Source of the DNA: Picosynechococcus sp. PCC 7117
Lineage (GTDB): Bacteria > Cyanobacteriota > Cyanobacteriia > Cyanobacteriales > MRBY01
Direction of reading: 5' to 3'
NCBI RefSeq assembly: GCF_001693275.1
Contig: NZ_CP016477.1
Location: forward strand, 558,001-622,000
DNA: 64,000 nucleotides
Shown here: piece by piece, positions 49,308-51,953 of the stretch
Numbering within the stretch: the stretch's first letter is position 1
How the letters are laid out: each line of letters begins with the position of its first letter
Program-made: the position numbers and the translations under genes
Notes under the pieces: model-generated
What the model saw: only the letters and a program-made list of their open reading frames with translations
The model's database searches: none
Told to the model about the DNA's origin: nothing

Positions 49308-51953
49308 TCATTCGGGGTCAGTAACATCTAAGGCCCCCCGAATAATTACCACTGTGCGGTTTGTCCCCTTGGCGATCGCCTCCGGAATATTTCCATGGAG
49401 CGCCTTTTGGAATAAGCTTTCTCGGCTAGCTCCCAGAATCACCAGATCGTAGGTTTCTTCTTTGATTAAGCGGATTAAACTGTCAGCAATGTGGGACGAG
49501 CGAATAGGTAGGGGAATAATGGGAATTTCGACCAGGGGATCCAGGCCTCGCTTGGCCTGGACGAGCAGCGGAAAATGTTGGGGGCGTTGTTGGGGTTGAT
49601 AGACCTGACAGAGGCAAATTTGGGATGGCAGGGAATAGCGCACCACCTCTGGGGACAGGTGCAACAGTGCCGGAATGAATTCCTGGGCGCGTTCGGCGTT
49701 GGGGCCGCCAGCAATGGGAACAAGGGCGCGGATTTTTCCTGGTTGAGCCTTAAACTGGAGGGGATGGGCGTGGCTCGTTTTCACCAAAATCACATCACAG
49801 GGCACTTTTTTCACGAGATATTCCATCACACTCCCGAACAGTTGCCCCCTTGGGTGGCGATCGCCTTGCCAACCCAAGATTAACCCCTGATCCTTGCTCG
49901 AAATTTCCTGAAGAATGGCCCCGGCCACATCGTAGGCGAGGATCACCTGGGTGTGGATCGAAATTCCCAATGTTTCCCCAAGGCGTTCGAGTTTTTCCAT
50001 CAGATGCCGTTCTGGATAGGTGTTCATGTGGGCATCGGTGAGGGGATAGGTTGCTGCCACCTGCACCACATTTAGGCAATAGACCATGGCATTTTTTTCC
50101 TTGGCAATGGCCGCCGCAAAGGTGATGAGGGCTTCGGCGGTATTGGGATTGGCGATCGCCACCCAGAGTTTGCGCTTGTAATTGTCGCTGGTGTGGGTTT
50201 GATAAACGCAATAGGACGGCGTGCGCTGTACCGCATGGTGACTTTTCCCAAGGAGTTCCTGGGCTTCGGCGCGAATAATATCTGACCGGGTGATAATGCC
50301 CTGGAGCTGATCATTATCGACAACGGGTAGGCGGGAAATTTGATAGCGATTGAGCAGGTACAAAACATCACTAAGGGAAGCCCGGGGAGAGACCGTAATC
50401 ACCTTGCGCTGCATCACCTGGGCCACCGTTAAATTCTTTCCCTGGGCCGCCATTTGGGCTAAATCCCCTTGGGTGACGATGCCAACGAGCTTGCCCTGTT
50501 TTAAAACCGGAAAACCCCGGTGGGGTGATTCGGAGAGGATGGGGACTAAATCTTTTAAGTTGAGATGGCTTTCGAGGGTTTCTACTTCCGGTTGCATCAC
50601 CTGAGCGGCGGTGAGATCCGTTAACACCTGGGGATTTTTTTCCTCCTCTAGGTGAATGCCGCTGGCCTCCAGGAGGTATTCGTAGATCGAACCTTTAAAA
50701 ATGCTTTCCGCCACAATGAGCGCTGTCACCGAAGCCAGCATTAAGGGGAGGACTAAATTAAAATCCGTGGTCAGCTCAAAGACAATTACAATCGCGGTCA
50801 CTGGCACCCGCGCCACCCCTGTAAAAAAAGCCCCCATCCCCGCAAGGGCGTAGGTATATTGGGTCGCCTCTGGCACAAAGATCTCGGCACAGGTACCCAC
50901 CAAATAACCGAGGGCCGTGCCTAAAACGAGGGTCGGTGCAAATAGTCCCCCCGGTGCGCCGGAGCCATAGGCAATCAAGCTTAGGAAAAAATGGGCGACA
51001 AAGGCGATCGCAATTACCTGCCAGCCCGCATCCCCCGTAAGCAAAAAATCCCGTAGCCCTGCATTGTCCCGGAAAAAAGGCGGCAAAAACGCGACCACAG
51101 TGCCCGAAATCGCCCCGGCGATCGCCATCCGCACCCCCAAGCTCAAGCGGAGACGACGATTAAACCCCAAAACCGTCAAGATACCGCGATTGAATAAAGC
51201 CCCCAAAACCCCTGCCAAGCCCCCCAACAGCAAATACCAGGGGATTTCTGCCAGATAAAAATTACTTTGATTCGCCGCGTTTAATAGCTCTGCGGGCAAA
51301 TTCAGATCCGAAGTGCCAAACCAGCGGGAGACCACCGAACCTGTAAAAGAGGCAACGATCGCCGTTTCTAAGGTCAGCCCTGACATGTCCCGCATCAGTT
51401 CTTCGACCACGAACAGTACCCCAGCAATGGGAGTATTAAATCCCGCCGCTAAACCCGCCGCTGCTCCGGCTGCAATCATTTGCCGTCGGTGGTTTGGGGT
51501 TGTCGGGAGCCATTGACTGAGTTGAGCTGCGAGAGCCGCACCGATATGGACACTGGGGCCGCGCCGTCCGAGAGTTAATCCGCCACCCAGAACCAAAATC
51601 GTGCCAATGGATTTAGCTAAGGCTACCTTCCAATTTAGCGGCAGGGGAAATTGGGCCAGGACAACCTTGACCTGGGGGACGCCGCCCCCCTTGGCTTCTG
51701 GGGCAAAGGTCTCTAGGAGATAGCCCGCAAACCAGCCGCAAACCACCCCAAATAGAGGCAGGATTAACCAGGCGCCGTATTGACGACTCAGGATGACCCG
51801 ATATCCCCCCACGAAACCGATGCCTTGTTTGAGGAAAAGGGCCGCCAAACCGGAGATGACACCAATGAGGCAGGCTTCGATTAATAAATAGTTATTGTTT
51901 AAGCTGTGCTGGCCTAAGGATCGAAAAATCCACCAATTTCGCACAGAAGCCAT
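49308..51953 (-). CDS. ClC chloride channel/antiporter with CBS pair and USP domain
   Basis: 881 residues in three parts. ClC core (about 20-440): KGGGVPQVK takes the place of the first selectivity motif GSGIP, GRRGPSVH (residues 129-136) that of GREGP, and GGLFAPTLVLG is the third motif. The external gating glutamate, normally in GREGP, is Arg131 (codon at 51561-51563); the internal FVVEEL glutamates remain. CBS pair about 450-580, then universal-stress-protein-like domain(s) about 590-880 with repeated VAIAGGP/ILGASRE patches. Inner-membrane Cl- transport regulated by nucleotide binding is the likely role. Confidence 0.88.
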   Translation of the reverse strand: MASVRNWWIFRSLGQHSLNNNYLLIEACLIGVISGLAALFLKQGIGFVGGYRVILSRQYGAWLILPLFGVVCGWFAGYLLETFAPEAKGGGVPQVKVVLAQFPLPLNWKVALAKSIGTILVLGGGLTLGRRGPSVHIGAALAAQLSQWLPTTPNHRRQMIAAGAAAGLAAGFNTPIAGVLFVVEELMRDMSGLTLETAIVASFTGSVVSRWFGTSDLNLPAELLNAANQSNFYLAEIPWYLLLGGLAGVLGALFNRGILTVLGFNRRLRLSLGVRMAIAGAISGTVVAFLPPFFRDNAGLRDFLLTGDAGWQVIAIAFVAHFFLSLIAYGSGAPGGLFAPTLVLGTALGYLVGTCAEIFVPEATQYTYALAGMGAFFTGVARVPVTAIVIVFELTTDFNLVLPLMLASVTALIVAESIFKGSIYEYLLEASGIHLEEEKNPQVLTDLTAAQVMQPEVETLESHLNLKDLVPILSESPHRGFPVLKQGKLVGIVTQGDLAQMAAQGKNLTVAQVMQRKVITVSPRASLSDVLYLLNRYQISRLPVVDNDQLQGIITRSDIIRAEAQELLGKSHHAVQRTPSYCVYQTHTSDNYKRKLWVAIANPNTAEALITFAAAIAKEKNAMVYCLNVVQVAATYPLTDAHMNTYPERHLMEKLERLGETLGISIHTQVILAYDVAGAILQEISSKDQGLILGWQGDRHPRGQLFGSVMEYLVKKVPCDVILVKTSHAHPLQFKAQPGKIRALVPIAGGPNAERAQEFIPALLHLSPEVVRYSLPSQICLCQVYQPQQRPQHFPLLVQAKRGLDPLVEIPIIPLPIRSSHIADSLIRLIKEETYDLVILGASRESLFQKALHGNIPEAIAKGTNRTVVIIRGALDVTDPE

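Follow-up and report, generated by a model that had tools for sequence, protein, structure and literature searches.

Arginine at the gating-glutamate position in a clade of cyanobacterial ClC-CBS-USP proteins

The ClC-CBS-USP gene and its gate codon

The window, by which we mean the whole 64,000-nucleotide stretch of Picosynechococcus sp. PCC 7117 DNA that was analysed, carries an open reading frame (49308..51953, minus strand, stop codon included) for a ClC-CBS-USP protein of 881 amino acids. All window features described below lie on the same strand. Pfam assigned the Voltage_CLC domain (PF00654) to residues 72-415 (50709..51740), with a profile match of 306 bits (cut-off 24.8) that covers positions 1-345 of the 346 of the domain. 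This is the only PF00654 match in the window genome; within the same genus, one match each was found in genomes G001, G002 and G005 and two each in G003 and G004. The CBS pair (50268..50609) was recognized by Pfam as two stretches, the best one spanning residues 510-562, and its first limit at about residue 449 was taken from the secondary structure of the predicted model. Pfam also returned two USP stretches, with limits given for the best one only. The first USP domain comprises residues 594-725 (49779..50174) and contains a GxxG-9x-G motif at 694-707, and the second comprises approximately residues 740-873 (49335..49736), as judged from the secondary structure of the model.

The minus-strand codons CTC GGA CGG CGC GGC CCC translate to L-G-R-R-G-P, in which CGC at 51563-51561 encodes residue 131 in the context LGRRGPSVHIG. 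A phmmer comparison with solved structures placed Arg131 (51561..51563) opposite E148 of ClC-ec1 (1kpk, LGREGPTVQIG), and the alignment is gap-free nearby. The replacement of the external gating glutamate by arginine, which the initial annotation had read from the GRRGP motif, is thus borne out by both the codon and the alignment. That annotation had also named two faults that could undo its reading, namely a glutamate elsewhere in the protein and a sequencing error at the codon. We found neither of them. No spare glutamate adjoins Arg131 in the alignment, where residue 130 corresponds to R147 and residues 132-133 to G149-P150 of ClC-ec1. GRRGP is also read in another genome of the genus, whose ClC domain is 99% identical, and in four more with 84-87% identity; a sequencing error is therefore excluded. 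The gap-free alignment and the agreement of independent genomes together rule out an error or misalignment at this codon.

Other hallmarks of the family are in place. The GGLFAP motif lies at the equivalent of ClC-ec1 354-359, and Glu184 and Glu185 correspond to E202 and E203, so that the motif and the internal glutamates are intact as originally described. Glu185 (51399..51401) is the internal, or proton, glutamate. Lys114 (51612..51614) and Tyr424 (50682..50684) are the kept counterparts of K131 and Y445 in the alignment, and Arg130, Phe172, Phe181 and Phe338 match R147, F190, F199 and F357. Two changes beyond the gate had previously gone unrecorded: the serine of the central site, S107 in ClC-ec1, is replaced by Gly90 (51684..51686) within the filter sequence GGGVP, and D54 is replaced by Lys42 (51828..51830).

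Distribution and evolution of the gate residue

ClC domains were searched in 60 near relatives (E up to 1e-3) and in 386 genomes of the phylum (E up to 1e-20), two partly overlapping sets in which 58 and 204 genomes, respectively, gave a match. The 133 rows longer than 750 aa reduced to 130 distinct full-length cyanobacterial proteins of the ClC-CBS-USP type, a census from which one split gene (L133) was excluded and outside which lie 16 further full-length ClC-CBS-USP-like matches. The gate residue is Arg in 43 of these proteins, Gln in 75 and Glu in 12. A domain scan found ClC, two CBS and one or two USP stretches in nine of nine long rows, and the remaining rows were assigned by length and alignment. 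The window protein itself has the ClC domain, two CBS stretches and the USP stretches, and its place in the clade was given by the tree. Gate Glu is present in all 12 other cyanobacterial ClC rows analysed (L135-L146, 453-649 aa), which make up less than half of such matches, and also in the shorter relatives L132, L134, L147 and L148. The suggestion that other cyanobacterial ClCs share the arginine therefore stands for one clade of ClC-CBS-USP proteins; as a trait of cyanobacterial ClCs in general it is ruled out by the Gln and Glu rows. In these alignments Arg is the extreme, in a single clade, of a broader loss of the glutamate, mostly to Gln.

Two of the shorter relatives, L147 and L148 (582 and 606 aa), are the reverse of the window protein: they keep the gate Glu, have Gly at the S107 position and carry Asp or Val in place of the internal glutamate. 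No USP match was detected in the short L147 by the domain scan. Another locus (L056:343-5657, minus strand) carries a tandem pair of full-length ClC-CBS-USP-type genes, one with gate Glu and one with gate Gln, and offers a natural comparison of coupled versus uncoupled forms.

The reach of the arginine form was estimated with a degenerate DNA pattern for stretches like G..[LF]GRR[GA]P in 84,980 bacterial and archaeal species genomes. It returned 59 stretches, each of which contains a ClC open frame having the gate Arg. The pattern is restrictive, as it demands a GR directly ahead of the gate and surroundings resembling the window's, and leaves contigs shorter than 3,000 bases outside, and the count therefore bounds this exact form only; the window's own record may be absent from the scanned species genomes. 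Fifty-seven of the 59 are labelled cyanobacteria, and the genera with Arg include Microcystis, Crocosphaera, Synechocystis, Spirulina, Pleurocapsa, Xenococcus, Prochloron and Limnothrix, together with cyanobacterial endosymbionts living in the diatoms Epithemia and Rhopalodia. Doubt attaches to the remaining two labels. L169, given as Chloroflexaceae, matches L010 at 100% identity over 814 aa, and the genome of L010 is placed in the order of the window organism; L177, given as Gracilibacteria, shares 95.8% identity with L204 from a Hydrococcus MAG. Judged by these identities, both are probably mislabelled or misbinned MAGs, and we rejected them as cases of Arg outside the cyanobacteria.

A tree of 173 rows was built with both trait columns removed and with SH-aLRT support by the quick method. 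All 82 Arg rows fall on one side of a single branch (support 100), which amounts to one change, and this clade contains no row with a different gate residue; the Glu, Gln and Arg states together require four changes. A second tree, of 151 rows, again supports the Arg clade at 100 (44 rows, with the window counted twice) and, when rooted on distant ClCs, places it among Gln rows. In this tree L135 and L136 are found next to L147 and L148, close to the base of the long clade; their branch is very long and its position unsure. A single step separates the Glu codons (GAR) from the Gln codons (CAR), and another the Gln codons from the Arg codons (CGR).

All six arginine codons are used at the gate among the named loci (CGC 15, CGG 12, CGA 11, CGT 10, AGA 9, AGG 2), and the membrane-domain dN/dS within the Arg clade has a median of 0.059 and a largest value of 0.26 over 75 non-independent pairs with dS between 0.1 and 1. 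From the codon variety and the low dN/dS we conclude that the gate Arg is kept by selection, which upholds the earlier impression that the protein does not look dead. A relaxed or dead gene, or a sequencing error, is hardly credible as the source of the arginine. One Arg-clade gene, L133 (genome G044, on a single contig), is indeed split between two frames by a frameshift, a pseudogene state or an assembly error; against this, the agreeing independent genomes, the six codons and the median dN/dS refute the explanation at the level of the clade, and four genomes labelled diatom-associated endosymbionts or uoEpiScrs1 carry the gene.

Predicted structure and other pore residues

An AlphaFold2 model built on 60 sequences (mean pLDDT 85.6, pTM 0.58) has Arg131 as the first residue of a helix spanning 131-147, the place taken by E148 on helix F of ClC-ec1, with a local pLDDT of 92-95 in the blocks of residues 121-140. 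Structural comparison gave a Z of 52.9 with 1ots (422 residues, rmsd 5.3, 28% identity) and of 52.6 with 6lsc (408 residues, rmsd 2.1), and the structures of the E148A and E148Q mutants of ClC-ec1 scored within 1 Z of the 1ots match. At a pTM of 0.58, the modelled placing of the CBS and USP domains relative to the pore is unsure. The window protein shares with ClC-ec1 (ClcA, 1ots/1kpk) the predicted fold, the internal glutamate and the counterparts of Tyr445, Lys131, Phe190 and Phe199, whereas it differs in the native gate Arg, in Gly at S107, in Lys at D54 and in its CBS-USP tail.

The pore residues were compared over 167 rows, including 80 distinct Arg rows longer than 650 aa, some of them loci picked for having Arg. 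Every one of the 80 Arg rows keeps the equivalents of E203, E202, K131, R147, F190 and F199. Y445 is kept in 76 rows and replaced by Asp or Glu in four, F357 is kept in 71 and replaced by Leu in nine, and the G149 position carries Ala in 41 and Ser in one. At the S107 position 77 Arg rows have Gly and three have Ser; the unselected set shows Gly in 42 of 43. The Gln-gate ClC-CBS-USP proteins, such as L028 and L113, belong to the same clade, have a similar length and contain the ClC, CBS and USP domains; unlike the window protein they have the gate Gln and, in 73 of 75 distinct rows, Ser at S107, and E203 is kept in 73 of 75. Apart from the three Arg rows with Ser, the pairing of Arg with Gly has one exception among the Gln rows, which carries Gly. 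We discarded the correlation between Arg and Gly90 as an independent signal, as Arg has one origin (a single independent pair); for the same reason, finding Arg together with Gly90 and Lys42 adds no independent evidence.

The replacement of coordinating residues in the Arg rows (S107G in 77/80, G149A/S in 42/80, F357L in 9/80 and Y445D/E in 4/80), together with the large cytosolic CBS-USP part, would suit an anion sensor. In such a protein the pore would bind anions without conducting them: Arg131, as a tethered cation, would hold an anion in either the external or the central site and pass a signal on through CBS-USP. We regard a sensor as unlikely, since K131, F190 and F199 in all 80 rows, F357 in 71 and Y445 in 76 are kept as expected of a conducting pathway, and the Gln relatives resemble ordinary uncoupled pores. 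A changed substrate has also to be weighed. S107 is thought to set the anion choice, and its replacement by Pro is described as favouring nitrate (PMC5362633); a pore with Arg and Gly90 could then serve nitrate, nitrite, bicarbonate or another anion, not chloride. The predominance of Gly at this position (77 of the 80 Arg rows) agrees with this proposal, as do the differences between Arg and Gln rows at ClC-ec1 positions 399 and 402. It nevertheless strikes us as decidedly improbable: Pro occurs at S107 in none of the 167 rows, and the only clues from expression relate to Synechocystis under salt shock or ammonium stress (PMC8670252, PMC10094980). Natural filter variants of ClC are also found in the CLC-F fluoride exporters, which, unlike the window protein, are reported to keep GREG and to replace GSGIP by GNNL-, GMNL- or GMGL- (PMC5100911).

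Lys occupies the D54 position in all of the 77 aligned Arg rows. Of the 75 Gln rows, 73 have Lys or Arg there, but only three of the 12 Glu rows have a basic residue. Simulations of ClC-ec1 describe D54 as stabilizing, via a water, the protonated gate outside the pore (PMC7274781). By these counts, which are inflated by relatedness, the loss of the gate glutamate and a basic residue at D54 go together.

By the internal glutamate, positions 51366-51401 of the window (residues 185-196) contain the pair Arg188 and Glu196, at ClC-ec1 positions 206 and 214. R at 206 is found in 78 and E at 214 in 75 of the 80 Arg rows, and the Gln rows have mostly Gln/His and Gly. The pair may be a salt bridge special to the Arg clade.

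The regulatory tail was judged by its motif. GxxG-9x-G is mostly kept, its first Gly being present in 63 of the 80 Arg and 74 of the 75 Gln sequences, yet the S/T that would follow is not conserved, and a stricter USP pattern fits only 10 of the 80 Arg and 19 of the 75 Gln sequences. We therefore do not take the motif as a proven nucleotide site.

Proposed anion pathway and the Synechocystis counterpart

Arginine has a high pKa and does not titrate near physiological pH. The window protein resembles the ClC-Ka/Kb kidney channels in the natural loss of the gate glutamate; it differs from them in keeping the internal glutamate, which those channels have also lost. Of the two glutamates of a ClcA-type Cl-/H+ exchanger, the external one is replaced by Arg131 and the internal one is present as Glu185; the NCBIfam equivalog model for the ClcA exchanger scored 277.9 bits, under its cut-off of 350. 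The residue at the gate of ClC-K is Val (Val166) and not Arg (PMC5362633). The E148A and E148Q mutants, which lack a gate glutamate like the window protein, are described as passive conductors, i.e. uncoupled (PMC12873427, PMC5362633). By the logic of these mutants and of the ClC-K Val, Arg131 would abolish coupling; the Gln found in most relatives surveyed is a mimic of protonation. The channel behaviour that the initial annotation described for ClCs lacking this glutamate is a reasonable expectation for the Arg131 protein by analogy with E148A/E148Q and Val166. The opposite loss is reported for AtCLCe of Arabidopsis thylakoids, a ClC with cyanobacterial homologs that keeps the gate glutamate and has Ser in place of the proton glutamate (PMC4746265).

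We lean towards a functional ClC-family anion pathway without proton coupling, i.e. an uncoupled, domain-regulated channel or uniporter. In the ancestor of one cyanobacterial branch, which lies among Gln relatives in the rooting used, a protonatable gate would have been replaced by Arg. An Arg gate cannot release and take up a proton physiologically, nor can it plug the external site in the way a carboxylate does. The side chain of Arg131 most likely faces the outer vestibule, where Lys42, Arg130 and Arg131 would form a permanently positive funnel that attracts anions. Gly90 would weaken the central site, and opening is probably controlled by the cytosolic CBS and USP domains. More tentatively, the protein might be pictured as a former exchanger whose titratable gate is now a permanent cation and which works either as an anion channel with a fixed charge or as a receptor that reads anions, under the control of CBS and USP.

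Several observations count against an uncoupled pathway. The changes S107G, G149A/S, F357L and Y445D/E could mean a poorly conducting pore, and a fully kept internal glutamate would not be needed by an uncoupled channel. Earlier studies linked disruption of the central site to uncoupling, and the same section of that source argues that weak binding need not uncouple (PMC12873427), so that Gly90 lends weak support to uncoupling. The internal glutamate, kept in all Arg rows and in 73 of 75 Gln rows, would be in line with a protein that is still a proton exchanger, in which this glutamate and waters, or another residue, carry the protons. We consider an exchanger very unlikely, as ClC-ec1 E148A is described as completely unable to move H+ (PMC12873427) and a comparison of charged positions found no new acid in the sequence around the gate; those enriched in Arg rows lie at ClC-ec1 positions 30 and 214, away from it in the chain. 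If the uncoupled reading is true, the only ClC found in the window organism would leave it no ClC-type Cl-/H+ exchange.

Both gating and coupling in ClC proteins turn on the gate glutamate. An Arg-gate clade under selection is therefore a natural experiment on a pore with a fixed positive charge, and a series of Glu, Gln and Arg gates is available within one protein family. In the open-licence literature we found no Arg mutant at the gate under the spelling E148R (ClC-ec1 numbering), no earlier report of a natural Arg-gate ClC variant and no work joining ClC, universal stress protein, chloride channel and cyanobacteria.

The clade also bears on chloride handling by cyanobacteria, whose chloride export is called not well understood in a review (PMC4390839). 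L141 is a near copy of Sll0855 over the whole length (E 3.5e-271 against 3nd0), and its genome was therefore taken as Synechocystis. Sll0855, a slow Cl-/H+ antiporter, is a cyanobacterial ClC like the window protein; it differs in its separate clade, its 454 aa and its kept gate glutamate (L141 reads AGFEGPT). The ClC-CBS-USP protein of the same genome, L014, has Arg at the gate and shares 97.8% identity with locus L165 of Synechocystis salina. From these matches sll1864 of PCC 6803 is likely an Arg member. A release-factor neighbour that would link L165 to sll1864 was not recognized within 8 kb, by eye and by a GGQ text match. Sll1864 is described as a candidate chloride exporter whose mRNA is transiently raised after salt shock and whose protein was not found in the proteome of that study (PMC8670252). 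If the Arg reading holds, sll1864 would encode a passive pathway. In Synechocystis 6803, the transcript of NirP1, a regulator of nitrite reductase, is reported to overlap sll1864 on the opposite strand (PMC10907346).
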